Part shown: one piece after another, positions 2,585-26,032 of the stretch
Position numbering within the stretch: position 1 is the stretch's first letter
How the letters are laid out: each line of letters opens with the position of its first letter
Assembly (NCBI GenBank): GCA_030581615.1
Contig: JAKTTT010000031.1
Coordinates: forward strand, 186,001-250,000
Reading direction: 5' to 3'
DNA: 64,000 nucleotides
Source of the DNA: Alloascoidea africana
Lineage: Eukaryota; Ascomycota; Alloascoideomycetes; Alloascoideales; Alloascoideaceae
Made by a program: the position numbers and the translations under genes
The notes under the pieces: generated by a model
Seen by the model: only the letters and a program-made list of their open reading frames with translations
Told to the model about the DNA's origin: nothing
Database searches by the model: none

Positions 2585-3914
2585 GCTAGTTGTTTCTCTA
2601 ACCTGGGTTGGTGATGCCTCTCTTTAGCACTAGAATGCTGGTTTTGAGCAAATCGCATATGTGGAAAGAGTAAGCGTGATCAATTCTGTTTTTGACTGAT
2701 GTGGATAGTTTTGTACCAGGCAGTTGTTGACACCTGAAAAAAAAAACAATTTTTTATTGAAGATACATAAATCTACGGCTAATCTAATCAGGTATTTTGA
2801 GAAAGCTTTTAGCAAGTTAGTAAAACAGCTTTAACTTGTAGCAACGCTCAACTTGAGCTTTCAAGGGCTTTTGATCAGTGCAAAGTAATATGTCAACACA
2901 AGAATGATAAATCAAACTATTCTGACAGTGTGAATAAATGATAGTACATCATTTTAAAAGTCACCTCGAAGTCAAATTAAGCAAATGAGCAAAACTCGGC
3001 TTACGTCAAACTGAACACAAAAGAAACTTTGCATTCTAAAATATCATCAATTGTTCAAGTTAGTTGTCAATCCTAATCCCGGTAAGCAAGGCAAATTATC
3101 TCCAGTGTGTTGAGAGTCAGAGAAGGACCTCTTCAACTATACCTTCCCACAGTCCAAATTGTACACGTAGGACTGTTTTTAACCAAACAAGTTGGTGAGA
3201 AGAGTACGCATTAAGATCGCCCGGTCGCAAAGTTTCTTCATCCAGACAAGTAGGAAAACGCGCTTCAAGTTAAATAAAAAAAAATACCTATATCAAATTG
3301 TTAGAATTTTCATTCATTTGATAGCAATTGGAGAACAAAAGAGTGATAAAGATAATATCCCATATTGATTGGCTCATACAAGGCTGAAACTTAACGAATT
3401 ACCATTGTCAACATATAGTTCAGAAGGAACAAGTGTTTGGAAACTTATAATCACAGCAATCGGATATCATTATCATCTTCTGGTAAACAGTGGTAACAGT
3501 ACTCCACTTACCTTTTCACTTTCAGTTGAATAGTTTGGAAAATAGAAATGTTAGGGAATACAAATTTTCATTGTTGCTTCTTATAGAAGCCAGGACATAA
3601 CCATAAAGTTGTCCGATGCATTTGTGGCATAATCATGAAAACGCAGATGGCATAGAGAAGCCCTAATAGGGCTTCCTCTCTTTCTCCATGCTCTCGATTC
3701 TTATCAAAAAAAAGAATATCAGATTGAAGAAATGTATAATTTTTTACTTATAAACAGTAATACTGGAAATCTTTGTAAGCTTAATCCTGAAAACTCTCCT
3801 TTGTAATAATGATGAAAACTGTCAAAGATACAAACCCATTTGGGGTGTATGGATGTTTTCCTTTTTGTCTGAATTTGCCAACTTCCACGCTTTCCACTTT
3901 ACACTTTGTGAGCA
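2585..3914. other. Divergent intergenic region HSL7-SRP54
   Basis: About 1.3 kb of AT-rich sequence between two divergent genes; it should carry both promoters. No coding exon is convincing. A 19-bp perfect palindrome lies at 3657-3675. No RNA gene was recognised. Confidence 0.5.
3657..3675. repeat. 19-bp perfect palindrome
   Basis: Arms GAAGCCCTA and TAGGGCTTC around a central A, about 240 bp upstream of the SRP54 start. It could be a dimeric factor site or chance; no known consensus was recognised. Confidence 0.45.
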
Positions 3915-5601: not shown

Positions 5602-5811
5602 TCGGTTTGCTTGAAGGACCAGAGATTTGTAATAATTTATACCTCATAGCTCATTTTCATTTTCATTTCCAGTACTTCTCTTGCATGTGTGCGGGCGACC
5701 TGGGACATTCCTACTGAATGTGCTGGGCGGTATGCTACCGTATCTCTCTGGTATGGCACAGGAAGCTCTCTTCGTCTCTTCTCCATTTCTTCCCGCTCTC
5801 CCTCGTCGCCC

Positions 5812-7251
5812 ATGAGATTCAGATCGCGGTCCTTTGCTCGGGAGAAAGAGCCCACCGCACAGCTGCCGCCGGTGCCAGGAAGTTCCAAGATCAGCGGCCG
5901 CGAGCCGGCCTTTGCTGGAGAAGGAGCAGCTTCCAAGGGCGAGTCCAACCCAGGCACAGGCACAGGCACCACCTCCAGCACGAACACGACCGCCTACGCT
6001 ACTCCACCGCTGCCTACGGGCAATACTTACTTTAACGAGGCCAACTTTGCGACCGTGAGCACCGAAAACAGCAGTCCGGACTCTATCAGCAAGTCCAGCG
6101 ATTCAAGGTCCTCCGTATACTCCACAGACTCGCTGTTTTCGCTGGACCCAAACGCGCAAAAGCCTCGGCAACCACTGTTTTCCTCCTACTCATCCCACCA
6201 GAATCCTGCTCATACAAACACCGATCGTCACAGATCATCAGATTTCAGGGCAGCACATTCCTCGACCCGTTCTCTGGACTTCAACCCAGAGTACCCCCCG
6301 ATATCTATACCAAAGTCTCGTAGTAAAAGCCCACACCACTCCAGAAGGTTTCATTCTTTTGCAATTGCTCGCCACGCTTACAAGCAATCGGCACTTTCTG
6401 AACAAATAATAATGGAGAGAAGTAATGGCAGGGATACACAGTCGTCTCCCCTAAAGATGGAAATCGCTGCTGATGAGACCAAGAAGGAGCAGTCTTCCTC
6501 GCGAGTCATTGATAGACTTCAAACCTCAATCGACCGTCTGCGACGTGAGCATGACGCCATGAAAGCTGAAACACAAGAATTCCAACGAGGCAACACACAG
6601 CATAAAAACAGGTGTATACAGTTGGATGACCAGATTTCAGCTGTAAACCATAGAAATGAGTCCCTGCGTGCCATTTTGACCCGCAAAGAGAGGAAAATAG
6701 AGCTTTTGGAAGCGAGCATTTCCGGTTTGGAAACCAAGGTCGGTGGGCTTACGATGCACAGAGACCATCTCGATGAGAGATGTGAAATGCTCGAGCAGGA
6801 GTTGAAGGATATTGAAAAGGACAGGTTACATTTAGAACAGGCTTACGAGTCTGTGTTCTCAGGCCAGAAGAATATGAAGGTTGATTACACTTCACAGTTC
6901 CAAGAATTGAATAATCGGCTGCTTAGGTATGTGGAAGAGGAACAGCTTGGTGCCCAAAAGATCAACCACTATATGAAGCGTCTTGAAAAGCAAAAACAAA
7001 TACAGACCATGATCCTTGAAGAGAACGCAAAGCTAAAACAGTTGAACGAAAAAAGAGAAGAATCCCTAAACCATCTCATGAGAAAGCTACAATCTGAAAA
7101 TTCCCGCCAGAGAGAAGCTGTAAATCCTATAATCAACACATGTAGGGAGCTTATTGCCGAGATTTCAGAAATTCAGAGTGATATTGTTACACCAAAGGCA
7201 CTTCAATATTTGGAAAACCTTGAATTATTGGCAGTGAATCGTAATATCTAA
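5812..7251 (+). CDS. SHE3: She3-like coiled-coil adaptor protein
   Basis: About 479 residues from the ATG at 5812 (MRFRSRSF). The frame is open to an ATG at 5689, but a CT-rich leader just before 5812 and the short gap to SRP54 favour the later start. Residues 1-200 are Ser/Pro/Thr-rich and disordered. A conserved block begins with SSSRVIDRLQTSIDRL and continues as an almost unbroken coiled coil to residue about 450. The SRVI..L start, and a later segment with NESLRAILTRKERKIELLE, match the She3 family pattern. She3 links the RNA-binding protein She2 to the myosin Myo4 for mRNA transport to the bud. Other filamentous coiled-coil proteins are possible because coiled coils attract false matches. 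It is convergent with ASA1. Confidence 0.7.
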   Translation: MRFRSRSFAREKEPTAQLPPVPGSSKISGREPAFAGEGAASKGESNPGTGTGTTSSTNTTAYATPPLPTGNTYFNEANFATVSTENSSPDSISKSSDSRSSVYSTDSLFSLDPNAQKPRQPLFSSYSSHQNPAHTNTDRHRSSDFRAAHSSTRSLDFNPEYPPISIPKSRSKSPHHSRRFHSFAIARHAYKQSALSEQIIMERSNGRDTQSSPLKMEIAADETKKEQSSSRVIDRLQTSIDRLRREHDAMKAETQEFQRGNTQHKNRCIQLDDQISAVNHRNESLRAILTRKERKIELLEASISGLETKVGGLTMHRDHLDERCEMLEQELKDIEKDRLHLEQAYESVFSGQKNMKVDYTSQFQELNNRLLRYVEEEQLGAQKINHYMKRLEKQKQIQTMILEENAKLKQLNEKREESLNHLMRKLQSENSRQREAVNPIINTCRELIAEISEIQSDIVTPKALQYLENLELLAVNRNI

Positions 7252-7469
7252 AAACGGTGGGGGGGAAATCTTATATAATGGTTTATGAAGCGCTTTGATT
7301 TAATTCTATGGTCATGCCAGCATTACTTGATTGATTTTTTTATGTTTGTTTGTTCTCTCTTTTGCTATTTAGAAAAACAAAAATCTGTTCCATTACTTTT
7401 CATCTTGGCTTGGCTTATCAGGCGCTTGTTGGTCTCACTGGTATTGATGGGACGCAATATGGGAAAAGG

Positions 7470-8792
7470 CTAATATATTTCGTATACAGATACAGTTCCA
7501 TCTTTGTTACCAATAGATGCCCAGTGTTTAGATATAAGCTGTAATTCTCTTTTCATTTTTGAAGTTTGGGACAATGATTGCTGGGTCAGAGATGTCAGGC
7601 TCCTTTCACTTGTCTGGCTTCGGTTTTTGCTGCTAACAGCCAGGGACTTTGATCCATGTACACTGGTCGAGTCTTGCAAAAGAGCAAAAAGACCAATAAT
7701 GGGTTTATCCTTCAAAGCCTCCTCCTTTGGTTGTTTCCCATTTCGATTCTCTTCAATAGAATGGCGCTTTGCAGTGGTGAAGACCGCCAAAGGTTTAAAC
7801 TTGTTGTATCGATAAAGTCTCACGTTTCCATCCCATCCAACCACTAAAGCTAGTTTCCCATCAGATCTGATATCCACCATTCCAAGCCTGTTATGACGAA
7901 GATCAATGGACTGTGTTTCTATTTTGGAAAGCTCACCTTCACCAAAGGTGTACTTTATAATTTGTGGGCCAGCGCTCGTCGTTAAGAATTCTGCTTTTGA
8001 TGGATTCACTGCAATAGAAAGTATTGGCTGTTTATGAAGGTTATCAATGTTTATGGTTCTTACAGTCCTGGTATTTTCCTCAAGCTTAAACACTGCAACA
8101 TGTCCAGACTCGTAACCTGCTATAACAACCAGGTCATCCCGGATTCTTATCAATCTTAAAACCATTACAATGCCATGCTTTATTTCTTCTATAGTTCCAT
8201 CACTTGTTTGGGGAGAAAGGGGATCATATACTCTGAATCCTGTTTTCAGATCGTAAATGTCAATCTTTTCTGAATCAATATTGTTTGGCGTGGCAATGAA
8301 TGTAGAATGACAAGAAACGTTACAGAAATTCAAACAGTTGACTGTCTGAGAGTACACCATCCATGGGAGCTGCCAATGAGATTCGTCTTTTGAAAAATCG
8401 GGCAAATCTTTACAGAGATCTGCTGGTGTGTATCGTTCTGAAGCTTTCTGAAGTATCTTGAATATAAACAGTTTATTATCTTTCCCATGAGTTAGCAGCA
8501 GGTCATGTGTATGTCCCTCATAGCTTAGCTGCTGTATCGTGATTATTGAAGAATTGTGGCATTTCCAGACTCCAAGCGGTCGACGCGTTGCCATTGACCA
8601 CCAAATACACCAACCTTGTTCATCGCCAGACACTATGGTTGGTACTTTAGGGATATTCAATTCAGGAACGCATTCCTCCGCATCATTGATTTCTAAGGGT
8701 ATATAAAAATAATGGATTGTTGTTATAGAATGTAAATGCCCTCGGAGTACAAACTGTGGAGGTGGGAAACTGAGCTGTACATCAGGTGCCAT
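7470..8792 (-). CDS. ASA1: Asa1, ASTRA-complex WD40 protein
   Basis: 440 residues without an intron. The start MAPDVQLSFPPPQFVLRGH, followed by a WD40 blade and VSGDEQGWCIWWSMATRRP, is the Asa1 pattern. Blades recur (LLTHGKDNKLFIF, VIAGYESGHVAVFKL, LVVGWDGNVRLYRYN). The end WASIGNKDGTVSVYEIY closes the propeller as in Asa1. A Ser/Lys-rich insertion lies before the last blade. Asa1 is a subunit of the Tra1-Tti-Rvb ASTRA assembly that helps stabilise PIKK kinases; its role here is taken from the family. It is the last recognisable gene before the mating-type region. Confidence 0.88.
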   Translation of the reverse strand: MAPDVQLSFPPPQFVLRGHLHSITTIHYFYIPLEINDAEECVPELNIPKVPTIVSGDEQGWCIWWSMATRRPLGVWKCHNSSIITIQQLSYEGHTHDLLLTHGKDNKLFIFKILQKASERYTPADLCKDLPDFSKDESHWQLPWMVYSQTVNCLNFCNVSCHSTFIATPNNIDSEKIDIYDLKTGFRVYDPLSPQTSDGTIEEIKHGIVMVLRLIRIRDDLVVIAGYESGHVAVFKLEENTRTVRTINIDNLHKQPILSIAVNPSKAEFLTTSAGPQIIKYTFGEGELSKIETQSIDLRHNRLGMVDIRSDGKLALVVGWDGNVRLYRYNKFKPLAVFTTAKRHSIEENRNGKQPKEEALKDKPIIGLFALLQDSTSVHGSKSLAVSSKNRSQTSERSLTSLTQQSLSQTSKMKRELQLISKHWASIGNKDGTVSVYEIY

Positions 8793-11700
8793 GTAGGTTG
8801 GTTCTTTTCAAGTGAGAACGCACAGTTCACAGAGTGCGTAAATCGCACTCTGTGGTGCGTAATGTTCAGCACGTAAAGCTTATCGATAAGAGTATGGAGT
8901 AAGTGGTATTCATATTTATTAGCTATGCAAATGGAGTTGAACTATCTGTAGAACAAGCGAGAATAGATTAATGTGGATGTGCTACAGTCTAATTTAATTT
9001 TTACCTAACTAGCTTAAGAGTCAGTAACATAAAACCTTCTTAGGAAGATAGAATTAGAAACTTGGTGATGAATGGGATCTCGCAATTGTTTAGAAGCGAA
9101 TCTCAGACAACGCAAAAAATGGATTACCAATGATAGGATTAGGGGAAACCAGGAGTTCGCTAATTCATCGACAGAGCTGCTGAAATATCCAAGAAAAACT
9201 AGATGCTAGCAGTAAATAAACGCTGGTAACCGGCAAAGTAGTATAGCTATACGATCCTTGGCTCGTTTGGCTTGTTATATGGATGACCAATAAGTATATC
9301 CTTTTTTTGATTGTTTGCTTATCCAAAATTTTTGCCAATTGAGTTGCTTTCAGTATCACTACAAAGAAAACGCTCGACCTTGACACTGTATCGTTTGTCT
9401 CATCGTCGTCCAGGTTAAGGCGTAGTTGGGATAAACCGATTATTGCAGCTTGCCATCAAGGTAAACAAGAGTTGCTCTTGGTTTTCATGGTTGAATATAC
9501 GACAGTCCCGTTTGTGTATGGTTTTTCCTCTTTTCCTGTCCAACTCATTCCATTCATTGTTTGCGCAGGAAGCACAAGTATGTGCCATTCATCAATCACA
9601 CAGAGTGAAGACTTGAATGCAATTCTCTTAGCATAAGTCAAGGTAGAAATAAGTAAGCACAGAGCTAAAAAAAACCAGGAAATGGTGATAGGTCATATAT
9701 TACTTGGGTATACTTCCCATGAACGATGAATTCTGGGGTCAAGGAGAAGTGGACCCCCAACCATGCCTCTCTACTCATGGACAAAAGATCCCTCTAGCAT
9801 CGCTAAACGCATCCAGATCATCGCGTAGTGGCATAGTTCCTTCAATGGCGAAAAGGTGAAAAGAAAAAATGTGATGTGTAACCAGATGAAGGAGGCATAA
9901 AAACTCATATCGATAAGCATCGGTTTGCCTCTTGTCAAAGTCACATCCATGAAACTCTATTTTGAAATTCTTGCCCTTCATCTTAAGAAAAGAAGGTCAA
10001 GAAGTTTTCAAACTGTTGCAATGAACCAATGGATCGATTTTTAGTAAACCAAAAATATTGTCTAGTGACTGGGATCATTTAAAACCATTGTCTTTTTAAG
10101 CTCGTTTGATAGGAACACCTAGTGGGCAAAAACTTGGCATCTGTAGATTGCAACACCATGAACGTTGCATTTTCAAACGTTTGAATGCATTGTCATTATG
10201 AATTTTCCCGTTGAAAAAGTCAAAACTATTCGTTGGTAAGATTTTAACGAGAATAACAAAGAAAGTCCTGCGATCCAGGTTATGAATTCTGATGATAGTT
10301 TTTTTCAAGCACAAAAGCTATTTCATAGGAATAGTGGGTCATTCTCGGCATTGCATCCGAAAAATGCTCTTCTCTTCCAACAGCACCATTTGCAATGATA
10401 TCTTTGGGCCGTCTTGTTTTGGTCAAACTGTTCCTTGAGAATTCTCGGCATGTTCAGAGTGTGAGAGTTTTATTGCCATTTCTGTGGTTGTTTCTTCACA
10501 CCAATGGAAATATCTGCAAACTCCAATGATCACAGAGAATTCTGGAGTATTCAAAAATTAAGCCTAAAGGTGACCAGCTAACTAGCCAAAATCCTTAACC
10601 TGGTACTCTTCTAGCCCTAACAATGATTTTAACGTTTGCATGTAAAACATGGGTAAAAGCAACATGACATTTGAGACTGGGGATATTAGCTAATGAGATA
10701 AAAGACATCACTCATTAACTTTGCCACTGCTAGTAAAACAGAAGGGCTGAATTGAAACTTTTCAATGTGTCGCAGCTGAACAATAAACCCTTGCATAATA
10801 CTTGATGCCAATAGATACCAATTTTCAAGCCATCACTTTTTTTCTAAAGGTGGCTTGATATTCTGACACCCGGAAACCCTTACTCTTTAAGTTTTCTAAC
10901 ACACTGGATCCTTCAATCTACTGCCATTTCTTTAGTGACCAGCGAGTAGAGCAGTAGATAAATTGGTTTGTATTGTCTAAAGATAAACAACGAAGTAGCA
11001 TAAAAAATATTGTAAAAGCTATGCTAAAGCAAGCTGCCCATGGTCCTTGATGCAAGTGATAATGCTAGATAGTTTAACATTTCCAAATGAAGAAGTGGTT
11101 CATGAAAGCATAGGAGCCGTACAATGCAACCATCAAATCATTAGATTGAAATAAGAACGTACTCTAAGATTGCATCACACATAAGCAATTTTTGTAATAG
11201 TGTGTTACACGCTACTTAGAATTCCAGAACCATGTGTATGGTAGAGTTCTATCAACAATGTCAAATTGACAGAGTGTTTTTGTTAGACGGTGACGTGTGG
11301 CATGTGATAGTGTTACGAAATTTCACGGGACCTTCTATCTATCTTAAATCTAGCACTCCAAGACAACCTAACATCTACCCTTGCTGATATCTCCAACAGC
11401 TGAAGGCTGAAACGAATGTATTCGCTTCCCGATTTGGACGGAATACTTCACGGCTGAAGCGTTTCTCCCTATGAATCATGATGGAGTAATACTGAACTTC
11501 TGGTTTGTTAGTTTTTTTTATAGTTTGTGAGTCCTGACATATGTTCGGCACTATCCGATCAAGATTGTCGATTGACTGCGTCAGGCTCTCTGACCCCAGA
11601 GAATTTTCTGTTTTACATGTTATGAACATAGAAAAGATTCACAAAAAAGTAAGTTTAATTCGGAATTGCGAGAAACTGAAAAGGTAATATACTCCTCGAA

Positions 11701-14509
11701 GCTCTCCTATTGGACGGTCTTATAGAAAGTCGGCAATTGAGAAACCGTGCGCGGCTAGGCGCGGCTAGTGGGAGCTTGAAAGACACTACCTGCATCTCTT
11801 TGGCCATCATTCCTTTGAGTGCTTAAGCTCAGCTACTAACATCCTAGCTGAAGGATAATTCTTTTGTTGTCTCGGACTTTAAATAAGGTGCAGCATTTTT
11901 CTCATGACTTCCGAGATCTCCAGAAGATCGCAGGCTTGCAGTTCAAGGATCCCTGGATCAAAATTTGAGGGTTGCAGCATGGGTATCGGGAAGTTACCTT
12001 TGCCTTGGAGAGTGTAGGTGACATTATTTCCCAATTTGGCAATAAATATTGTGAGCTGGTCAACTTTGGATGTGATGTCAATCCCTTTTGTACGTCAATG
12101 ACTTCAATTGAAACAAAACACAACCCTATTTCGGAAAAAACACTGACTTGTTGCATTCGAATATTTCCCATAATTGGAAGTTTCGGAAATTTTGAAACAG
12201 AGGACTCAGTGCTGCCAAGCTCAGGACTTTGGTGCAAATAGTTAAGAAACATTGCTTGTTCTTGTCACTCAAACTGTGATGTTTTAACTTAGATGAATTC
12301 GGATTATTTAAAAACAACAACATGATTTACCAGGATTGCAGTAACAGATTTCCAATATCTATTCGGCCGCAATAAAACTATGGTTCTCCAAGGGTCTCTC
12401 CCGCCAAAGCTTTTTGCGCAGGGGAAAACGATATCCAGCAGTATACTTCTTTTCAAAGCCGTAAAAACCTTAGATAATTTTTTTCTTCCATTCTTCTAAA
12501 GTTTCTTGGAGATGAATCTTTAATCGGTTCCGACAAGTAGCTGAATTAAAGTTTGATTTTTGATTATGGGTGAAACAATGGAAAGGTTTCCATTGAAGCG
12601 CTTTCTTTGAAAAAATATCTAATACTTGGCCATTAATTATTCAAATACTGCTAATAAAGTACCGTAACTGTTATCTTGTACACTGGTAAACAACGCCAGT
12701 GCTCAGCGAAACCTCGTTTAGTTTTGGACTAAATGAAGCAAGAAGAGTAGGGTAGACTAAAGAGTGTTAAAATAGAAAAATAACATTCTGCAGGTGTGTA
12801 TGGCCTTACATGGTATTGTTTCAATCCAACAAATAGTGAACTCATATTTTGCTATCACTCCGCATTTTTCAACTTTACCAGCAAACTCTCAGCATAGTTG
12901 TTCGGAGATGTACGAACAATCAAAGAAGAGAATTTTTCACAAATTATAGGCTAATACATATTTGCTTAATTCATTTCTCACGCCAGGTCTTGCCTTATAC
13001 GTAACTATAGCTGTTGAGAGCACCATGTATAATACAAGAAGTTGCCTTAAAACAAGTAAATGAACTCATAATATATGGAGCCTTTTCAAAAATTAAGCTC
13101 AAGAATGGGAGAGCATTGGTGGTTGCATCCCAGGAACAAGTCTATCTTACTTACGCTCAAGGTGACAATTATCCGGTTTGAAGATTCTAAAGATCGCGTT
13201 TCATATTCAGTAGACCACAAAAGATATAACACGGCCTGGTTTTGAATCGGGGACTTGAAAGTTGGTGGAAATGGAAGAGCCATAAAGCTACTCCAAAACT
13301 CCGGTGGTTGAGTTACAAGCCAGTTTTTGCCTCTTATTAATCGCAACATGGGTCTTCTAGAATAGTAGAAAACGTTTAAGGAATAAATATCTAATAAATA
13401 ACAGTTGTATTAAGGATAGATATAAATCTTATGCTTTTTTACCAAAGATAATACTTGCTGGTTTACAATCAGAGGATACTTAAATTTAGCTAAATGCCTC
13501 CAGGTTTAATGCCTTGTGTTAACAGAAGCTTCGACATATAACCGAAAGAGCTTGGCATGCGATAGCTCATAGGTCAGCATGATGAAAAGAACCTTTTACA
13601 ACTCCCCAAGTAAGCGAGGGAATAATTGAATGTTTTGATTTTTTTTTTCATTTTCACAATGAAATTATGATGATTTAGACATCCAACTGCAGAAGTTTTG
13701 TTGACAACCCTTGAATAGCATTCCGCAGCATTCTTTTGCTCTAGGGCTTTGATCAGACAATATTTGAAGTAGTTGTAATGATTAATTCATCAGATGCCCA
13801 TAAACATGCGAGTGGCTGTTAATTAACAGTTTTCCCCGAAAAGAGGCATTTCCAAATAAAAAAAAGACTTGACTGAAGCAGGAAAAATTGGTCCTTTAAT
13901 CGTCTACATCTAGATAAATACACAAAGCAAAATGCTGGGCATTTACCCCAAACGGCTGCGTAGTCTCAGGGACTAACAACTCTTCTCACCTTGACATTTT
14001 TCTAATTATGCACATTCTTCAACACAAGCAATTGAATATTTAATTTTTTGTTTACCGACCTTTCAGTTCCATTGCAATAAGTTTTATTATCATGAAATTG
14101 AACTCGTACTATTTGAAAGATTTCATTTTTTTCAAGTTATCCTACGAACATGTCTCCTGTCAAACTCTGATTTGCATGTAGCTTGGCGTTTCTAGAAGCA
14201 TTACAGGTAACATAAAACAAGGATTAGAAGAGTTTCTATTAACAATAGCTCATGTAACAAGATAATTATAATCGTATGACCCGAAGTATTCCTTGAGTGT
14301 GTTTGTATTATAGAGTTTTGAGAGCCATGGGTTTATGCGAGCCGGAGCTTAGCGCAGGGATGCTTTCGGTAGAGTCAATATACACTTCTTCCTGCCATCA
14401 CGTTTCATTTTCTTTGACTATCGGGTCATGGCTTCGCGAGATAAAGACTATAAGTTAAAAGCGTTTTCTCCAAGTTTTTCAAAAGCCTCTTCCACTATTC
14501 TGATCAATT
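8793..14509. other. 5.7-kb gene-free left flank of the mating-type gene
   Basis: AT-rich sequence with only short frames on both strands (none above 116 codons) and no recognised domain, tRNA, LTR or inverted repeat. Several of the short frames sit on the minus strand (9.2-10.3 kb and 11.4-13.3 kb). Their translations are protein-like to the eye but match no family I know. It may be decayed idiomorph or regulatory DNA. A short promoter for ASA1 must lie next to 8793 and that of MATalpha1 next to 14509. Confidence 0.5.
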
Positions 14510-15526
14510 ATGCGGGAAAAAATTACAAGAGATCTTCAAAGAAGTGGCCTAGTTTCTACATTTAGATGCCTCCACAAACCAGATATCCCACCACCTTCTC
14601 CGGATTTACAAAGCTTTCTAAACAAGATATCAATTCTTCATAGCAATTCAGATAGAAGCCATATTAGAAAGAGAAAAAGGAAGAAGAAGCCCACTTCTCC
14701 TTGCAAGCCAAGAAGAATCAATGGATTTCTAGCATTCAGATCTTTTTATTCTCGAAACATAAAACATCCAATTCCACAATGGGAACTCTCAAGCACATTC
14801 GCCAGACTCTGGGCAGTGGAGCCAAATCAACATGTTTGGGAACGATATGCTGAGGAGTACAACACGCTTGGGAACGACAAGCCTTTGTTTCCAGACTGGT
14901 TGGCAGCTTCTAATCCACCTGATAGAGAACTGGTAAAAACACCCCAAACAAGTACTAGTTCTGTCTCTGATCTCTCCTCTCCTACTAAGACATCGGTATC
15001 CGCCAGCTCCCCAGATACTCCTTACACGGATTGTTTTATAAATCCACTTCAAGATGGCTTTATGGCCTTACAAGACTTTACGAATGCCTTCGACATAAAC
15101 GCTTCCAATGTGGAGCCAAATCAACTCAAGCCAAGTAAAAGCCAGGTTTACTACCCGAGTTCTTACGAATTATCTGTCGAGGATGTTATGTATCCAGACT
15201 CTGCTTTATGCGCCGATCTGAAAAATGAGCTCACTTCACTTTCAATGGATCCACGCCAATATATACAAGACTTTGAGTATGAAGCCTTTTTACCTGGTCG
15301 AAATTCTATTCAACCTCCTCCACCTCCCGCACCCCTACCTGAGTTCAACACCTTCCGAGGCAATAGCACACGGAGCTCTAGGATATCTCGTGATATAATA
15401 TTCCCAGATAGTCCTTTATTTCCTTATTATTTCTGCGATTTCTTGCCAGGCAGTGACGATCGAAAAGAACGTGCCTCGGAAGCCACTCTTTTTAAACTCG
15501 AGCAGGATCCTTGGATAACTAACTAA
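14510..15526 (+). CDS. MATalpha1: Mating-type protein alpha1 (alpha-box transcription factor)
   Basis: 338 residues, one exon. Residues about 66-131 form an alpha-box: a basic run RKRKRKKK leads into RRINGFLAFRSFYS, then WELSSTFARLW, HVWERYAEEYN and FPDWL. The alpha-box is an HMG-like DNA-binding fold restricted to fungal alpha1 proteins, which activate alpha-specific genes together with Mcm1. The remaining 200 residues are Ser/Pro/Asp-rich with PPPPPAPLPE and are likely activating. The protein is longer than S. cerevisiae alpha1 (175). A TATAAG motif lies at 14449-14454. SLA2, the usual neighbour of MAT loci, lies about 5.4 kb downstream, convergent, with a retroelement in between. No a-type HMG gene and no second alpha gene were found, so the strain is probably haploid alpha at this locus. 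Confidence 0.92.
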   Translation: MREKITRDLQRSGLVSTFRCLHKPDIPPPSPDLQSFLNKISILHSNSDRSHIRKRKRKKKPTSPCKPRRINGFLAFRSFYSRNIKHPIPQWELSSTFARLWAVEPNQHVWERYAEEYNTLGNDKPLFPDWLAASNPPDRELVKTPQTSTSSVSDLSSPTKTSVSASSPDTPYTDCFINPLQDGFMALQDFTNAFDINASNVEPNQLKPSKSQVYYPSSYELSVEDVMYPDSALCADLKNELTSLSMDPRQYIQDFEYEAFLPGRNSIQPPPPPAPLPEFNTFRGNSTRSSRISRDIIFPDSPLFPYYFCDFLPGSDDRKERASEATLFKLEQDPWITN

Positions 15527-15853
15527 CGGGAAAGTTTCTTCTGAGCTTACACTCATCGGTAACGATGTTTCTTCGTTCTGCTTTTTTTCTCCGTGTTGGC
15601 ATTATTTTTGTTATTTTATTATGTTGGGATAAATAGTCTTAGCGTTTGTGGAATGTCTTTCGCGATTTTGTTTTTTGGAGGCTGTTTCTCCTCCAAATGT
15701 AAGATAGTTGTGTTTGTTGATTTGTCACGTTAAAGAGGCCAAACTGTATCGATAACCCAAGTATAGAGCTCTTATGAGCTGCAAATAAATCTAATAGGAT
15801 TGGTCTGTGTATGACTACCTAGACGTGCAGCGCGGCTGCTGCCAATGTGAGAG
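15527..15853. other. MATalpha1 3' flank
   Basis: T-rich sequence after the stop, then unique sequence up to the target duplication of the Ty3-like element. It should hold the MATalpha1 terminator. Nothing else is seen. Confidence 0.5.
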
Positions 15854-15858
15854 TATGG

Positions 15859-16003
15859 CGTTGGGATACGGATGTCCCTGCCTCAAGGCATCCCAGTTTC
15901 AGCCGAGGCATTTCTCTATTTAAATAGCCTAGTTCTTACATAACAATAGAGGATCCTCAAGAAAGTGTGTGAGTCGTGAACATATAATTCTCGAACCCTT
16001 ACA
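15859..16003 (+). repeat. Left LTR of the Ty3/Gypsy element
   Basis: About 145 bp, similar to 18785-18931 over its whole length and ending in ACA. A short copy of the LTR end is repeated just inside it. The flanking TATGG duplication defines its outer edge. Confidence 0.85.
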
Positions 16004-18784
16004 TGTACATCTTCCCCGAACCCTTACATGGAGGTCGTTCCTCGTGTCTTTTAATCCTATACAGTTCTTCTACATTTCTATCTCTCCTCTTATTCTCCGA
16101 TCAATCACTCTCATGTCTAAGGTCAAATCAGAACATTCAGAAGAACCATCGTCTGGCGACAGCACGGCCCTAACCCGACCTTGGACCTGGCCACCTTTGT
16201 GCGACTCGCCACGCTTGCCAAGCGCCAAGACAGAAGGGCGGCCAAGCTCGACCTGCATTACAAAAGGCTCGGCGACTGGACCGTTTTCCAAAGCCGTCCA
16301 GCCGTCCATACCAAGCTTCACAGGTATTTGCAGTCCATCTCCTGGTCTGCAGAACACCTGTACGAGGCGCTATACGATGATGCTTTAGACGATGCCACGC
16401 GTGCCTTCTGTGATGAATACCAGGACATGGTCATGGTACGAAAAAGACCAACAAAAACCGCCGACCAAACCAGGCCATTCGTATTCAGCAGGCCACATAG
16501 CCAAGCATCGATGTACATACCACCTGAAGTAGTAATGAAGCTTCTGAGTCCGCCTACCCTCGGGTGTTCGCGAATCGAGACCGCCCATTTTGTAGACGAG
16601 TTGTTTTTATCTTTGCCGAATGCACGAGGCCATCCCGCCTCTTGCTGAATTGACACGGGATCGGATGCTCTATGGCACCGTTCGACGCATGGTGCCCCGA
16701 AACGGTTAGATGTGATTCTCCTCCAATGCCTGACAGGAAGGAGCGCCAGGTGCTTGAATCGAACTGAGGACCCCTATAGCCCAGTTTTTCTCATAACTGG
16801 AGAACTTTTTGGATCTGTACTCCACGGGCCTAAAACTCTTTCCGTCGTCCTGCAGCAGTGCAGCGCCGACTCCGACGTCGGACGCGACCGTCATAATTTT
16901 AATTCGGGCGTCGGGTGCAAGGAGATATCATGTCCCACCCAATGCACTTTTGGCTGTGTGAAAACGCATTTCTCCATGTTGACAACCAACTTGTTAGCGC
17001 CCAACGTGGAGAAAATGCGTTGTAGGTGCCTGAGATGATCGGCAAGAGGGCTGGAGAACATCAAGCAATCATCCATGCAGATGCGTGAAAATTCTCTGCA
17101 GGGCAGTAGTATATCCTGAAAAAAACGGAAAAGACCTGTGGCCCGTTTCTGATCCCGAAAGAAACAACTTCGGCATGGGTTCGGAAAGTCGTCAGAAGGA
17201 CACTCTCGTCCGTCAATCTCAGCTGATGGTAACCTGATCTAAGAGCCAGCACAGAGAAGATCGTGCCTTGAACGCCTGCAGCTAATTGCCTGAAATTGGG
17301 CATCGTAGGAGTGGCCGGGACAGTATTGGCTTTCAAGTTCCGATAACCCAAAGCCATCCGTAGACTGCCAGATGCCTTCCGAACGGTGTTCGGAACTGCA
17401 TAATGTGGATATGCAGACCTGCAGATGAATTTCCGTTTCAAAAGCGACTTGACTTCTGCTTCAATAAACCCTCGTTTTTCGAGAGAGAATTCTGGGAGTG
17501 GGCGGTTTCCTTTCCAAACAGGCGCACTTACTAATTGGATAGCATGGCCATGGATAGGCTTAGGGGGAAGTGAAAAGGAAGCGTCGAAGAGCGACCTCAA
17601 CTGCCACTTGATCAAGTTTGTGACAGCCTGGGGAAGCTCTTGGGAAATAGTTACTGAGACTGCAACCACTAACAAAGACTTTCGAATATTTATCTTAAAC
17701 GGAAATTGTGATTTGCGAGAACGAATAAGGAGCGTAACGTCATGATCGTCAAGGAAAATCCAATCCGACGACAGCAGTGGCACCGGCGGCTAAATTGAGC
17801 GTCGTAACATAGAAAGTGATCTGATACTCTCGTCCGTTGACGATCACAGAGGAGTGCGACTGTTTTTCGAGAACAATGGTAGAGAATTTACCGAATCGGA
17901 TGTGAATCATCTGTCCTGTAGTTTCTACTGGAAACCCGTTTGTCGCAGCGAATGTCGCGTCCAGGAGGGACGCGGGTACACCGATCGATTGAAACTTACC
18001 TCCGGTGCTTACGTCCATACAAATGAGCAATGGTTACAAGCACTACCAGTGGGCGAGTTTATTTACAATTCAAGTGCACCCTCAGCACTGGACAACAAGT
18101 CGCCCTTCTTGATCGACTTGGGGTACGTCCTAACTAAGCCCGTCGATTTTGTTTTCCCAAATACAATTACCCAACACGATGACGAACTCTTGGGAACGAC
18201 ACTGGCGGACAAACTCAACCGCCTCGGAAGTGCTGCAAAAACGGCACTGGTCTTAGCTCAGGCTGCGAGCAAAAAGCATTTCGACTGAGCAAAACCTCAC
18301 CCTACAATCAGGGTTGGACAGGAAGTTTACATTGTGGCAGAGGATTTCGGATCCTATCCCGACGCAAAAACGAGAGTCTTGTCGCCCAAGTTGCGACCCA
18401 AGTACTTTGGTCCCTTTAAAGTGCTCCGAGTACTCGACGCATTGAAACTAGAACTCGAGCTCCCAGGTCAATCCAAAATGAGCCCAATCTTTCACCTCTC
18501 ACAAGTTGGAGCGAAACCAGAGGTCCCCAGCTCCTTAACCGCTGGACTTTCCCGTCTAAGCTTTTACACGATATGCCGATGGTTCCGTGCTGGTGGAAAT
18601 TACGAAAATTTCACAACACAGAGCACGAAAACGAGGACTCGCTTATCAAGTTCGCTACATGGACGGATCCACGGATTGGGTCCCGCGATCTCTACTTATG
18701 CGCACCGCCAAGGACATGGTGGATACCTATGAGAAGGACCACCCTCGTTAATAGTGTACATCCCAGATCCACACTACGGGGGGA

Positions 18785-18931
18785 TGTTAGGATCCAGATG
18801 TCCCTGCCTCACGGCATCCCGGTTTCAGCTGAGGCATTCCTCTAGATTAACAGCCTAGTTCCTATATAGCAATAGAGGAATAATCAAGAAAGTGTGTGAA
18901 TCGTGAACATATAGTTCCCCGAACCCTCACA
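18785..18931 (+). repeat. Right LTR of the Ty3/Gypsy element
   Basis: About 147 bp, starts TGTTAGG and ends CTCACA (TG...CA termini), followed directly by TATGG, the duplicated target. About 20 differences from the left copy. Confidence 0.87.
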
Positions 18932-18936
18932 TATGG

Positions 18937-20966
18937 GGAAGATTTAAAGGTTTTTATAGTAACCGACAAAAGGTTTTGCTCAACGCAGAGTACCACACAA
19001 ACAGCACATACAAAATCTTCTGTAATGTTACACAGAATTATGTAGTATGTTTGAGTTAGATGTTTTGCGTTGCTAAGATATGAGAGTCTGAAAAGCTCTA
19101 AAGTTTTGGCACTCTCGGAGCACTCTAATTTTCTACAGCGTGGCCGAACCTCTGTCCGATAGAGGATTCTCAACGGTTCGGCCTCTAATTCTGAACCGAC
19201 ATAGATTTACAAATATAGGAATGGAATCATTTGCTACTTTTTCAATATTTATGTTCTTGAGACACAACTACGACAGCTTCCGAATCTTCGTATTTATAAA
19301 CTTAAACTAAAATCAATAAAGAACCAAGTTCAGGTTGAATTTTCACAGTATGACCTGAGTTGTGATTGACAAGCTACAGATCATTTTTGTGACTTCAAGA
19401 TCATGCTTCAAAGGTTAGGGCACTACCTCGGTACTATTTAAGCATGATAGCAATACCGACACTCCAAATTGGGAGTTGGTTCTCATGAAAAAAGTAGAAG
19501 ATATCTGGGGAAGATAGGGACTACTGATTGACAGAATGTGGGGTTCCGGATGAGAGTATAGGTACTAGCTATGTATGGAGAGTGGGATAGAGTGAACTCC
19601 AAAGTTTAAACGGTAAACGGCAGGTCAATCACTACTTTAAACCACGAATCATTTGATATGCTCTCAACATGTGATGAATCGGACCCTGCTTACCTCTTAC
19701 TACCTGTAAAGAAGCTTATTCTTGGGAAAACTAGTAACTTATTTTTGTTTCACAGATTAGAAGCAGATGATGGGAATGTGATAAAAACTTGGAGATAGAT
19801 GACTCTGGCAAACTTTTACCGAGTACTCTAACCCTAAGCTGCTCATACATGGTCTCAATTAAAGTTTATCCGTGAATAACCGCGTGTAGCCGGCCCTGTG
19901 CAGCCAGCTGTGTGCAGCCGTGCGTTTTCTAGGTTTCTTTTTATGCTTATCTCTCATGCCACCTAACTGGGGGTCGGTTACCTGTATCTCACAGAATGAA
20001 TAGATCGTGCTTTTCACCACCGAAGCTTTGGTCACACATCTACGTTTCGCTGGAATAAAAAGTTTAATGTCTTTTGTTTAGTCACAAACGAGAATTCAGT
20101 AAGTTGTTCTTATTGTGCGATAGCTGAGAGGAAGAAACTTTTCTTTTTCTTTCGGGCCAAAGAGCAAAATAAAAAGGCTGCTTTTTTAGCACTCGATATC
20201 TACCCCATTTTTTGAAGATCCTTCAATCGGATAGGAAGATAAATGCTATCATGAAAAAGCAAACTTTCTATTCCTTGTAGGATATGTTAGAGGACCGACT
20301 TCGGCTTTTTTAAAGAACAAAAGCATCCGCCTGCTTAAAAATTCCACTTCAAAAGTAGTTTTTTTCAATTTTTATGCCATAGCCTACTCGCGGTCAAGTC
20401 GTCTATATACCCGACGATTCAAACGCTTAGAAGCCTGACAAGTATGAAAGAAAACGTAACAGTAAAGTCTGATTGTAGTCCAAAATACTGCTATTCTTAA
20501 AATCTTCTTTTCCAGAACTTGAAAATTGAGAACTAAACTACTTGCACACTTTTCTAATGCCATATTCCATTTATTCAACCAATCTTTTTTTTAATTCTCC
20601 ATAATTCCAATCTTTCCTGCACTACGATTCTCTTTCCAGGATCTCAATTCCCCACCGTCAACAGTTTGGAGCTTTCAATAGCAAAAAAGAAGCCAATAAG
20701 CTGATATTTCCAAATGTAATCTTAATCGGAGACTGTGCCCCAAAGATACAATCATACTAACAATGCTTTGCAACAAGATTTTTTGAAGAACATAAACCTC
20801 TCTTCGAAATCAGTACAATTTTAGTGTAAACACCATTCTTGAAGATTGGAGCTTGACGGGCATACACACTGAACCCTCTTTTGGCGACGTAAATCCATCA
20901 AAACACGACAAAAAAAAAACAAATAGGCTTTATTATTAATACTTAACGACTTAATTGGCATATGGT
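18937..20966. other. Gene-free 2-kb region between the retroelement and SLA2
   Basis: AT-rich with no convincing gene. It contains a compound hairpin at 19142-19183 and short GC-rich repeats of GTGCAGCC type near 19.89 kb. The proximal end should hold the SLA2 3' untranslated region. Confidence 0.5.
19142..19183. repeat. Compound inverted repeat (nested hairpin)
   Basis: Outer arms GGCCGAACC and GGTTCGGCC (9 bp, perfect) enclose an inner pair CCTCT and AGAGG. It lies about 210 bp beyond the right LTR. Its function is unknown. Confidence 0.55.
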
Positions 20967-23900
20967 TTAAGATGATTCTTCATCTGAATCATCTATGTAA
21001 CTATACTTTCTGATTTCTCCTAGCCTCTTTCTCGCGGCATTCAACGAGTTCTCGAGTTTCAAGATCTCCACTTGTTGTTCCATCTCAGTTGTCTTTAGCT
21101 GATGGGGAGCATATGTTGAATAGTCAATCTCCTGCTCCTTGGTATGACGTTTAGAAATGATGTCTTGCACTTGGTTAACCAAAGACCGGCACGCGGAGGT
21201 AACAGCTTTACTGGCAGATTCCAAGCGGTCTTGTGTCTTTGACATGAATGTAGCCTTGACTCTGGAAGCTGCAACCAACTGGGCTGTAGAGGCAGCAACT
21301 TCATTGGATGCCACGATCAACTGCTCTGGAGTGTTTTTCGCACCAAGGACACCATCTGCAGTTTCGATCAGAATGTTTGTGGATGCGGCTACAGCCTTAG
21401 CAGCTGAAATCAAACCTTCAGTCCACCTGTTATGGGTCTTGTAGAAAGCAGTTCTCGAGTTTGTGCCTTTGCCCTGCGCAACAATTTCTCTTTGAGAATC
21501 TGTAGCAGCTTTAATCAACAACGCAATTGCATTTGTAACTGCAATGGCAGCTGCCAAGATGGCCTTGTTGATCTTCATGTCAAACTCGGAAATGGTAGGA
21601 TCTCTAGGCTTATCCAAGAGAAGTGTTAGACGCTCGCTTGCAGCCGCAATAGCTTCGGCAGCCTGTTCCATTTCTCTGTCAACCAAATCGCCCAAATCTC
21701 CATTTCCTAAAGCAATCGCATTGGTACGAGGAACCAACTTCTCCGCAAGCTGAGACAGCTCCAATAGTTTTTGCTGAACATCAATGTTTCCGTTAATGAC
21801 TCTATCATTCTTTTCCTCAATGTTCAATCTTTCAAGTTTACTAGAAAGAAGGCTGTTGAAAAATTCTTCGGCTACCTGTGCAGCGCTACGTGCCGAGGCA
21901 ACAATGTTTTCTGCAGCAACGTCTGATCTCGCGAGCCTGATGACACCCTTTGCGTCTAACACAACATCAGACACAGAAGTGGAGAAAGTTGAGGCTGCGC
22001 TAATGATTGCAGAATGATCTCCATTAGGACCATCTGCGATAAAGTCGTTGAAACTTGTGGCAAAATCAGTTGCAGAAGAAGATGCCTTTTCAACAACGGA
22101 TAGGAGGTATTCAGGGGACGTGTTTTGATTTCCAGCTTGCATAGGGGAGTCCAATTCAAACAAAGCATCCTGAATCCGCTTCGCACTACTGATAAGAATT
22201 GCATCTACAATACTGTTCAGCTTTCCGAGATGTTCTAGAATAAGTTGGTCAATTTGCTCGTCCAAAGTCTCTTGCATGATCTCTAGCTCATCTTCCTTTT
22301 CTTGCAATTTCAATTCAATGTCCTCATCCACAGTCCGCTTGCCGGCATTATCTGCCAATTGTCTCTCCAAATCCTCAACCTCTCTCTTGTGTTGCTTTAG
22401 AATCATGGATAGATTCGAATTCTGAGACCGCTCCGAACTGTCTAGCTTCTCCTGGAGCAGTCTAACCTCCCGTTCCAACTTTTCCACCTCTGAGCGAGAA
22501 CTTCCTCTTGCCTTGTCCAGATCATATCTCGCACGATCTCGTTCTCTGATCAAATCTGCAAGTTCCAGGTTCTTTGTCTTCAAGTCGCGTTCTGCCTTTT
22601 CCCGTTTTTCAATCGCCTCTTGTGCAGATGCCGCCTTTTGTTGCAAGTGCTTGTACTTGGTCAAGAAATCGAGATGCTCCTGTCTTAATTGGGAGTACAG
22701 CTTTGCAAGCGCCTCATACTTGGATTTCCAAAGTTTAATCTGTTCCTGAAGAGTCTTGATCAGCTCGTCCTTAGATACAATTTGTTGGCTTGTATTTGCA
22801 TTGACTTGAGCAAGCTCGGTTTCCAGTGCCTTGACACGTTGGTCGTACTGTTGCAACAACAATTGGTCCTTATCAAATTGGCCTCTCAAGTTGAGAATAT
22901 CACGTTCCAACTCAGCTACTCTTCCTTGTGCTTGTTGTTGTAGTTGGTCTCTGAGTAATTGTTCCTGTGCCAACCTCTGTGCTTCAGCCTGTTGCCTTTG
23001 TTGTTCTTCAAATTGTTGTTGTTGTTGGACAGCGAGCTGTTGCTGTCTCATGAACTCCGCTTCTCTCTCTTCCTGAAGCCTCTTTTGCTCCAGTTCGTAC
23101 TGCTCCTGAGCTTGATCACCATTAGACCAAAAATCGGTGACAGGAGTAGGGTCCATTGACCGATCCGGAACAGGAGTAGGTTGCGGCGAGGGACTAGGCG
23201 GGTTTTCCTGGGGTCTTTTGGGGAGATTTGGGGCATTTCCATCATCCTCTCCGAAAAGATCAGGAGGGTCAGGGGAAAGTCTTGGAATAGCAATTAGAGA
23301 GGTGAGGTATCTTAAAGATTGGCAATCGCTATAGAAGCCCACCAGTCTTATGTGCTGGGCCCCGTATCTGCTCCTCAGTGGCTCTAGAGCTTCATCAGAA
23401 CCAGTACTACTATGCATTGCTCGCAACATGCTGGTACAAAACTTGTAGATTCCATAACTCTCGTGAATAAGGGGAACAAGAGCGGAAATCTTGCACTCAC
23501 TTGCTCTTGTATGACTTATGCTTGCAAAAATCAGCTTTTGGAAATCGTCTATTGAGTCTTGCAAAGCCATCAGGTCCAAAATCACCTCGTAGCCTTCATT
23601 CGGATCACTGATTGATCTCAAGCTAACGTACTCCTCGTATTCAAAGGTTCCGTTAAATGCCGGGTGAATCTTGTGAAAGTGCAATTTTTGAAGTAGAAAC
23701 CGGTCATATTCTCTTATGAGCCGGCCATAGCCCTTGAAACCATCTCCGTGAATTGTTCTGCTGAAGGATTCAATGTATCCGATGTTCCGCTGTGCCTCTA
23801 CTAGAGACACAGGATGGCCTTCCTGCAAAACTTTGTGGATTGTGATCAATGCTTTGAATGACTGTACCTCGTCAGACTGGATTGGCTGGATTTTCAGAGC

Positions 23901-24023
23901 ATTCCAAAAGCCTCTAGAAGTTTTGTTATCCCAAGTATAAACAATGCAGTTTCGAACGTGTTTCCGTTTGGGAGCAGATTCCTCAGTACTTGTGGCCTTT
24001 TTAACGGCTTGGTTCAAGTCCAT
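20967..24023 (-). CDS. SLA2: Sla2, ANTH/talin-like endocytic adaptor
   Basis: 1018 residues, one exon. Domains in order: ANTH lipid-binding domain (about 1-270, with APKRKHVRNCIVYTWD and HPAFNGTFEYEEYVSL); Pro-rich linker; Gln-rich coiled coil (about 310-600) that pairs with clathrin light chain; and a C-terminal talin-like I/LWEQ actin-binding module (about 780-990, with TAFYKTHNRWTEGLISAAKAV). The protein links membrane and clathrin to actin during endocytosis. The length is close to the yeast protein (968). SLA2 borders MAT in many Saccharomycotina and other Ascomycota, which supports calling the neighbouring alpha-box gene the MAT locus. The many plus-strand frames inside are shadows. Confidence 0.97.
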   Translation of the reverse strand: MDLNQAVKKATSTEESAPKRKHVRNCIVYTWDNKTSRGFWNALKIQPIQSDEVQSFKALITIHKVLQEGHPVSLVEAQRNIGYIESFSRTIHGDGFKGYGRLIREYDRFLLQKLHFHKIHPAFNGTFEYEEYVSLRSISDPNEGYEVILDLMALQDSIDDFQKLIFASISHTRASECKISALVPLIHESYGIYKFCTSMLRAMHSSTGSDEALEPLRSRYGAQHIRLVGFYSDCQSLRYLTSLIAIPRLSPDPPDLFGEDDGNAPNLPKRPQENPPSPSPQPTPVPDRSMDPTPVTDFWSNGDQAQEQYELEQKRLQEEREAEFMRQQQLAVQQQQQFEEQQRQQAEAQRLAQEQLLRDQLQQQAQGRVAELERDILNLRGQFDKDQLLLQQYDQRVKALETELAQVNANTSQQIVSKDELIKTLQEQIKLWKSKYEALAKLYSQLRQEHLDFLTKYKHLQQKAASAQEAIEKREKAERDLKTKNLELADLIRERDRARYDLDKARGSSRSEVEKLEREVRLLQEKLDSSERSQNSNLSMILKQHKREVEDLERQLADNAGKRTVDEDIELKLQEKEDELEIMQETLDEQIDQLILEHLGKLNSIVDAILISSAKRIQDALFELDSPMQAGNQNTSPEYLLSVVEKASSSATDFATSFNDFIADGPNGDHSAIISAASTFSTSVSDVVLDAKGVIRLARSDVAAENIVASARSAAQVAEEFFNSLLSSKLERLNIEEKNDRVINGNIDVQQKLLELSQLAEKLVPRTNAIALGNGDLGDLVDREMEQAAEAIAAASERLTLLLDKPRDPTISEFDMKINKAILAAAIAVTNAIALLIKAATDSQREIVAQGKGTNSRTAFYKTHNRWTEGLISAAKAVAASTNILIETADGVLGAKNTPEQLIVASNEVAASTAQLVAASRVKATFMSKTQDRLESASKAVTSACRSLVNQVQDIISKRHTKEQEIDYSTYAPHQLKTTEMEQQVEILKLENSLNAARKRLGEIRKYSYIDDSDEESS

Positions 24024-24591
24024 GATAGCCTAAATTAATATTATTCCTTTCAAGAAAGTATTTCTAGGAAACGGCATGTTAGTAAATTACAATTGAACAA
24101 TCCCTGCTTCTCCACTGAACCATAATAATCAAGTGTGCTGTTCAAAATGAAGATGCAAAAGTGGGTGTACAACTCCTTTTCACGTCTTTATCAGTGAATG
24201 GGAATGGTGCACTGGTTGAAAGCCTCTAGAAAAATCGCCACAAATAATGTGTGCTTACCTAGCCAAGCCTATTCGATAACCGCAATCGGCTCTCTTTTAT
24301 GATGACAATGATGTAAAAACAAATGAAACACAGTGCTTGCTGGTATATTTCCGAGTCTCCTGACTCTTCTCCAATGGTGGGGGATCAAGAGAACAGGACA
24401 GGAGGGCGAGATGTACGGGTGTAAGGGAGCACAAGGCTGTGCGTTCCCGGTGCACACGGCATCCGCGACAGTTATGCGCGGAATGGACATGAACAAGAAA
24501 AAGTACAAAATGATGAGGATTAATAGTAACTACAAAACACAATAAAGGCTATTCTTTACAAAGAGTAGACCGCACTGGGAAGCACAAGAAA
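24024..24591. other. SLA2 promoter region
   Basis: 570 bp between the SLA2 start and the VPS75 stop, both on the minus strand. It holds the SLA2 promoter and VPS75 3' end. No gene is seen; the short overlapping frames are not supported. Confidence 0.5.
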
Positions 24592-25660
24592 TCAATTCTT
24601 GTCCTTCTTGGTCTTTCTTGGAGAGGTTTCGGTGTTTGAGCGTTTCCGCTTTGTTGGAGGTTCAGACTCTGATTTTTTGTCTTCATCCTCTTCATCATCA
24701 TCATCATTCTCCTCTTCATTTTCATCATCGTCTTCACTGTTTTCATCTGAGCTCAGTAAAATTTCTCCATCCTCGTCTTCCTCATCAACCCTCATAGCCT
24801 GTTCCGTGTAGTATCTCGCAGCATTCGGGAAGATTTCCTCTGCAATCAAAAGTGCCAAATCGCAGGCATCCTGGAACTCACCAGAATTTTTCCCTGTGTA
24901 TGCAAACCACTTGAAAAAACTCTTACCCTTTTCCGGATTCTTGCCCGACTTTGTCTTCCACTTGATTTCTACCGGCTCAGAGACAAAACGTTGGACAATT
25001 TTGGGATCTTTATTTTTTGTAAATACTTTTGTCACAACTTGATCCTCAACCAATTTACTCCCTTTGAATTCAAACGTTATCGAGATTGTATCTGGATCGG
25101 GATGTGCCTCTTTACCATCTCCATTTAGTCGAGAAACGTGAAGCTCAGAAACACTATCCAAAACCTCAAAATCAGTAGGTGCAGGGACATAGTCTTCCAA
25201 ATCGTCGATTTCTGCAAGTACAATGGGCCAGAACCTAGGGATTTTCCGTAGCACTTCACGACGTGTATCGAAAATAGGCTGAGTCTTTTTGATGTGGAAA
25301 GCAACTGTTCATTGTAAATAAATTGTCCTTAAGAATTAGAAAAAACTGTGATGGTGATGGTGATGGTGCTGCAGATTACACGATCGTTGAACAAATGGTG
25401 ACAACGCTTTCAATTTCAGCGTTCATGTTCTACATACGCGATTCTCTTTCAACATCTTCAAGATCCTTTTCGATATCAGCGAGCTTTGTAAGCTGGATAT
25501 CTAAACGAGAGCTGCAAGCAAGAATGTCGTTAGTACCCATCCATATCCACGCATGTGCTCATCATAATCATATCATCACAATGGGAACAACCCCCTAAAA
25601 AAATTTAGCGTACTCTTCTCCGTCCTTGGCCACTTCCGTTTTGGTCTCTTCTTCTGTCAT
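24592..25660 (-). CDS. VPS75: Vps75-like NAP-family histone chaperone
   Basis: Three exons by my reading: complement of 24592..25304, 25438..25511 and 25614..25660, giving 277 residues. Exon 1 starts MTEEETKTEVAKDGE; its donor is GTACGC, and the branch is GTACTAACG before the TTGCAG acceptor. Exon 2 encodes the dimerisation helix (LDIQLTKLADIEKDLEDVE); its donor is GTATGT. Exon 3 opens with KKTQPIFDTRREVLRKIPRF, the NAP/SET helix-to-earmuff junction, followed by FWPIVL, the earmuff beta domain (SITFEFKGSKLVEDQVVTK) and SFFKWFA. The tail is a long Asp/Glu run followed by a basic end (PTKRKRSN), as in Vps75/SET. Vps75 binds H3-H4 and stimulates Rtt109 acetylation. A frame calculation alone would miss the first two exons. 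Confidence 0.87.
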
Positions 25661-26032
25661 TATTACCAGCAATTGCCTAAAGTTGGTAGCTATGTGGGCG
25701 TGGTAGGTTGAGGTTCAAGTTGAAATTTTGAGAAATTCAGATGAGGCTTTCACAACACTTAATACCGGGTTACCACTCCCACTAACTACCACTACCTTGA
25801 ACGACCTAGTTGGACGGGTAAACGAACACCGACAAGAGAATCGGAAATATCATGTAATTCGTATTTACAAGTACATGGAATGATAACATCTAGTCTAGAT
25901 CCACTTAATAGACATGGTGGTATGATGTTGTTTGTTGGCTTTTGTTGAACTCTTGGAACTGCTATACTGTCTCGATAGGATTCATCAGCTTATTCACATT
26001 TTCTTTGCTTCCCATCCAATCTCTTCTCACTC
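25661..26032. other. VPS75 promoter region
   Basis: 370 bp between VPS75 and the MRPL17 stop. Nothing beyond expected promoter and 3' end sequence is seen. Confidence 0.45.

Follow-up and report, generated by a model that had tools for sequence, protein, structure and literature searches.

Several described yeast mating-type (MAT) loci resemble the one analysed here. In the cited part of the Trichomonascus vanleenenianus report (PMC13130702), this species and its three closest relatives have MATalpha1 beside SLA2, with alpha2 unreported, APN2 not adjacent and the opposite mating type not found so far. Blastobotrys loci, as given in the cited sections of Krassowski et al. 2019 (PMC6692504), likewise have MATalpha1 adjoining SLA2 without alpha2, the other neighbour being APN2. 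The same sections give for Lipomyces oligophaga an ancestral locus, MLH3-SLA2-MATalpha1-APN2, in which no alpha2 was detected, along with a further locus, of MATa type, close to a telomere; for Ambrosiozyma ambrosiae and A. philentoma, the MATa context is the ancestral SLA2-MATa1-MATa2-DIC1-ASA1. The order SLA2-MAT-DIC1 is called the ancestral state in the cited part of a further report (PMC13148404). It should be added that DIC1 and APN2 are usual but not defining neighbours, Starmerella and relatives having TFC1 next to MAT according to the cited sections of PMC6692504. Our literature search found no paper naming the mating-type locus, SLA2 and ASA1 together.

The locus studied here lies in a stretch of 64,000 nucleotides, hereafter the window (C31:186001-250000), of an assembly of 23,180,953 bases (23.18 Mb) in 138 contigs. 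Every search was made in this one assembly, in which identical repeats could be collapsed. The following features were recognised, with positions counted within the window.

7470-8792, minus strand: ASA1-like WD-repeat gene, left neighbour of MAT, with weak WD-repeat matches
8793-14509, no strand: 5.7-kb spacer from the ASA1-like gene to MATalpha1, with no recognisable gene
14086-14176, plus strand: two-copy intergenic element upstream of MATalpha1, its second copy at C19:311826-311923 (L051:1501-1598)
14510-15526, plus strand: MATalpha1, ATG start, single intact frame of 338 codons, alpha-box match
15854-15858, no strand: left copy of the target-site duplication TATGG, five bases flanking the retroelement
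15859-18931, no strand: decayed LTR retroelement in the MATalpha1-SLA2 interval, recognised by its LTR pair and target duplication
15859-16003 and 18785-18931, no strand: LTRs of the retroelement, about 85% identical over 147 columns
18932-18936, no strand: right copy of TATGG, five bases flanking the retroelement
18937-20966, no strand: right spacer, from the retroelement to SLA2, free of Pfam matches in all six frames (E <= 1)
20967-24023, minus strand: SLA2, single 1018-aa frame, ANTH 251.4 bits and I/LWEQ 201.9 bits

In yeasts the DNA-binding protein MATalpha1, whose alpha-box belongs to the HMG superfamily, turns on alpha-specific genes, for example those for alpha pheromone and the a-factor receptor, and SLA2 is a classical neighbour of MAT. 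Judged by its sequence, 14510-15526 encodes MATalpha1, with a predicted role in alpha-specific activation. Residues 16-121 of the product match Pfam MATalpha_HMGbox with 47.8 bits (cut-off 28.1; E 1.4e-12), and the genome-wide Pfam alpha-box search, at a threshold of E <= 0.001, returned one match in the 23.18-Mb assembly, which was this same gene (E 6.5e-12). The core consensus of alpha1 proteins, given as F-[MIV]-[AG]-F in the cited part of PMC2999568, has no exact match in the protein; FLAF at residues 73-76, inside the alpha-box, is one residue off, with L for M/I/V. A single-sequence structure prediction of the alpha-box shows three main helices at low confidence (pLDDT 64.3, pTM 0.41), and the sole Foldseek match of this model at E <= 10 was an HMG protein, at a non-significant E of 8.1. 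MATalpha1 adjoins SLA2, only the decayed element and spacers lying between them, and the search of the assembly with the SLA2 protein scored seven candidates, one of which, SLA2 itself, matched at E <= 1e-5. The original prediction had placed an alpha-box gene and SLA2 at 14510-24023; Pfam domains and intact frames confirm both, and the coordinates of both ends are exact.

On the left side, the product of 7470-8792 gave weak WD-repeat matches, all under curated cut-offs where such exist, and its comparison with PDB yielded 23 weak matches (best E 0.0058) with no ASA1 among them; the name ASA1, used in the original prediction as well as here, is presumptive. Beyond this gene, on the left, come a SHE3-family gene, SRP54 and a PRMT5-type methyltransferase, and to the right of SLA2 there are a frame with a weak BUD22 match (19.4 bits, under the cut-off), a gene for mitochondrial ribosomal protein L46, a mitochondrial carrier and PEX14. 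Neither DIC1 nor APN2 adjoins MAT opposite SLA2; the ASA1-like gene is there instead. The six-frame Pfam scan of 1-8792 found no APN2-, COX13- or MLH3-type family at E <= 0.001, a scan that small or spliced genes could escape, and the one match to the GRF zinc ribbon in the genome (E <= 0.1) falls within an APN2-like frame on C48. The left neighbour had been said to be neither APN2 nor COX13, and this holds; broken APN2 synteny has a precedent in the cited part of PMC13130702. The view that an ASA1 neighbour is itself a departure from synteny has to be abandoned, since ASA1 belongs to the ancestral order reported for the two Ambrosiozyma species in the cited sections of PMC6692504, and an ASA1-like gene beside MAT therefore fits the old order minus DIC1.

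The locus shares with T. vanleenenianus and its three closest relatives all the features listed above for them (PMC13130702, cited part), whereas the genomes of that paper measure 13.7-15.8 Mb against 23.2 Mb here. It resembles Blastobotrys and L. oligophaga in the SLA2-MATalpha1 adjacency without alpha2 and differs from the former in lacking APN2 as the other neighbour, and from the latter, which has both APN2 and MLH3 as neighbours and a MATa locus besides (PMC6692504, cited sections). As in A. ambrosiae and A. philentoma of the same sections, SLA2 stands on one side and ASA1, here ASA1-like, on the other, but the present locus has alpha1 only and no DIC1-type carrier before the ASA1-like gene. 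A MAT locus of this type is already known, and the locus is ordinary, expected biology. The analysis adds to the original prediction that ASA1 has a place in an ancestral order, that DIC1 is missing, that a decayed element lies in the locus, and that the genome has a dispersed HMG family. It is one more genome with a lone MATalpha1 adjacent to SLA2, in this case with an ASA1-like gene on the other side, and helps to date the exit of alpha2 and DIC1 from the locus.

Both spacers were covered by six-frame Pfam scans (8808-14509 and 18940-20965; stops read as X; threshold E <= 1), and neither yielded a family; for 8808-14509 this includes homeodomains, HMG boxes and mitochondrial carriers of DIC1 type. 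The longest ATG frame of 8793-14509 has 116 codons, a length that 21 of 200 composition-matched first-order Markov sequences equal or exceed. The stretch 15859-18931 is an old insertion that has since decayed: its minus strand holds a reverse-transcriptase-like remnant at 17064-17789 (19.9 bits, under the cut-off of 29.6), and five of its six open pieces, scanned singly, had no match at E <= 0.1. A related LTR is present at the start of contig C101. The description of the region as a MAT locus was sound, and the retroelement and the 5.7-kb gene-less stretch were absent from it.

Genome-wide HMG_box and homeodomain family searches, at a threshold of E <= 1, placed neither kind of domain in the interval from the ASA1-like gene to SLA2; the nearest matches on C31 are at 174000 (an NHP6-like HMG_box match, 26 kb off) and 101008. 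Altogether there were 22 HMG_box matches, none of them at MAT. By eye, we take two to be NHP6-like, two NHP10-like and three ROX1/STE11-like; four others lie in an apparent single 319-aa frame (C40), two in one C80 frame, one in a short C2 frame, and the remaining eight form a dispersed split-box family. The two homeodomain families had seven and five matches, the five falling within five of the same seven genes and none at MAT; by eye these are presumably three PHO2-like, two YOX1-like and two CUP9-like genes, and none appears a1- or alpha2-like. Neither the family searches nor the six-frame scans found an alpha2, a1 or a2-type gene at the locus, although very diverged or finely spliced genes between the ASA1-like gene and SLA2 could escape both. 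A single MAT gene, with no a2-type HMG gene and no alpha2, had been proposed, and it is what we see; an a-type HMG gene was looked for at this same place and none was found.

The search for second copies covered 8808-15859, which holds MATalpha1 and its left spacer; except for a 98-bp piece, this stretch has no other copy in the assembly. In addition, 7000-26000 contains no inverted repeat of at least 30 nt, though imperfect repeats of 22 and 25 nt do occur. A haploid heterothallic strain with the alpha idiomorph is therefore the most likely explanation. Furthermore, the single alpha-box and the single SLA2 match, together with the lack of a duplicate of 8808-15859 and of a long inverted repeat, argue against a switching system as well as a diploid assembly that contains the two alleles; the alpha-type MAT locus of the original prediction agrees with this, as the single SLA2 and the unduplicated searched stretch are what a haploid alpha strain would have. 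In terms of the classes in the cited sections of PMC6692504, the genome is a candidate for HET with MATalpha genes only: it has one alpha-box, no a1-like homeodomain and no a2 at MAT, but also eight unassigned split-box HMG genes elsewhere. Repeated MAT flanks and silent copies, the signs of flip/flop or three-locus switching, were not seen within the copy search of 8808-15859 and the repeat search of 7000-26000.

We consider it quite probable that a haploid ascomycete yeast, probably one of the Saccharomycotina, has its MAT locus here, with an alpha idiomorph that consists of MATalpha1 alone; we infer that the species is heterothallic and early-diverging. The Saccharomycotina are suggested by the complex I 51-kDa subunit, whose closest solved structures are the NUBM entries (942 bits; Yarrowia lipolytica), and by the SHE3-family gene. 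Geotrichum candidum was rejected on a weak argument: one of three esterase frames (L030) scores 221 bits against 1thg, the solved lipase of that species, which does not exceed the score against other yeast lipases (1lpm, 226 bits). Alloascoidea hylecoeti was rejected, as far as assembly BCKZ is concerned, since the ten P450 places of the present genome disagree with the positions that PMC6723986 prints for it. MATalpha1 would switch on the alpha-specific genes, and cells of the opposite idiomorph would be expected to have MATa2, MATa1 or both in the space that separates SLA2 from the ASA1-like gene. On the way to the present state, alpha2 would have been lost and DIC1 would have gone from between MAT and the ASA1-like gene, loss being assumed rather than original absence, and the LTR element entered between MATalpha1 and SLA2 and decayed there afterwards. 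The interval from the ASA1-like gene to SLA2 is a direct PCR target for strain typing, and with a strain of the opposite type heterothallism would become testable via the locus.

The dispersed HMG genes bear on an alternative that we regard as unlikely, namely that the strain is primary homothallic in a non-contiguous form and self-fertile, with a-type information elsewhere, e.g. in one of the dispersed HMG-box genes. The split-box family among the 22 HMG_box matches consists of eight frames of 411-724 aa on contigs C7, C11, C14, C19, C46, C82, C101 and C102, at the following places.

L033:3397-5448, split-box HMG gene
L034:1629-3392, split-box HMG gene
L035:2879-4198, split-box HMG gene
L036:3449-4984, split-box HMG gene
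L037:3358-5529, split-box HMG gene
L038:3119-5023, split-box HMG gene
L039:3318-4550, split-box HMG gene
L040:2068-3675, split-box HMG gene

Their identity to the first member, the reference of the alignment, is 23-60%. Six of the eight have a Pfam HMG box above the cut-off; L039, with its box under the cut-off, shows a weak alpha-box match (16.2 bits vs a cut-off of 28.1). A profile of the eight proteins matches SOX-type HMG boxes in PDB (best E 5.3e-07). The second half-box resembles MATA-type boxes by eye, a point for this alternative. The genes on C46, C101 and C102 lie less than 5 kb from a contig end, and there is precedent in the cited sections of PMC6692504, where 12 transitions to primary homothallism are given; in eight of these the opposite MAT allele was acquired close to a telomere. 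On the other hand, this is a family of eight members sharing an N-terminal region and an HMG box with an insert after helix 1; only one SLA2 match exists in the genome, so no split-box gene stands beside a second SLA2; the neighbours of the C19 and C101 members (two of the eight, viewed by eye) are non-MAT genes; and no a1-like homeodomain was found genome-wide at E <= 1. Nothing ties the split-box family to MAT, yet its sequences weaken any statement that the genome has no a-type HMG gene, and leave some room for one. That MAT has shrunk from a four-gene system to MATalpha1, with a-type identity set outside MAT by at least eight amplified MATA-type split-box HMG proteins, seems to us very improbable.

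Further candidates connected with this family were rejected. Kinship of MATalpha1 to the family was dropped, the profile aligning 22 columns with a probability of 2.7% (E 0.017) outside the box. A second MAT locus on C19 was suggested by a 98-bp match of 73% about 3.3 kb from the HMG-family gene; nothing else of window 7401-24100 aligns there, and by eye the surrounding genes, one of them a transporter, do not belong to MAT. Contig C101, with its related LTR and HMG-family gene, was considered as a MATa allele; the next gene is anion-exchanger-like by eye, and the first 8 kb contain none of the MAT neighbours.

It is still more doubtful than primary homothallism that the locus is a relic, MATalpha1 having been retained in a lineage that no longer mates. 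A retroelement within the locus, a long gene-poor spacer and the missing alpha2 would suit such a history, as would the STE2 receptor search, which returned nothing from the one genome at E <= 0.01 and thereby also counts against the heterothallic account; no control gave a match in that search, so that absence is not implied. However, all 338 codons of the MATalpha1 frame are intact and encode a good alpha-box, and SLA2-MATalpha1 without alpha2 is known in other species from the cited parts of PMC13130702 and PMC6692504. Secondary homothallism, with switching by inversion or silent cassettes, is scarcely credible in spite of at least 11 origins of such systems in yeasts (PMC6692504, cited sections), as there is no second 8808-15859 beyond the 98-bp piece, one SLA2 match, no other alpha-box and no inverted repeat of at least 30 nt in 7000-26000; a collapsed or distant repeat could escape these searches.

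The 98-bp match on C19 is the second copy of the intergenic element at 14086-14176. The two copies have conserved ends and a variable middle, and the 20-nt end occurs twice perfectly and three more times with three mismatches, the reversed control pattern giving no occurrence. The element ends in CTGA, which we take to resemble a box C/D snoRNA motif; Rfam had no match at E <= 1 for the window copy, and near the C19 copy only mir-308 was returned (17.4 bits, E 0.88), outside the element. Elsewhere in the window, the snoRNA snR41 is encoded at 3369-3460 (minus strand, 69.3 bits) and a tRNA-Val (CAC) at 60608-60681 (plus strand), and 58230-58685 (plus strand) is a retroelement fragment with a weak RVT_3 match (13.7 bits, under the cut-off of 21.6), presumably Copia-like. 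Outside the window, the complex I 51-kDa subunit is present in two copies, on C23 (L047) and C25 (L048), identical at 466 of 496 residues, with a DNA identity of 78% and dN of 0.05, dS not being computable by the method used. This pair, along with the NHP6-, NHP10-, CUP9- and YOX1-like paralogue pairs, could point to an old duplication, either genome-wide or of a large segment.
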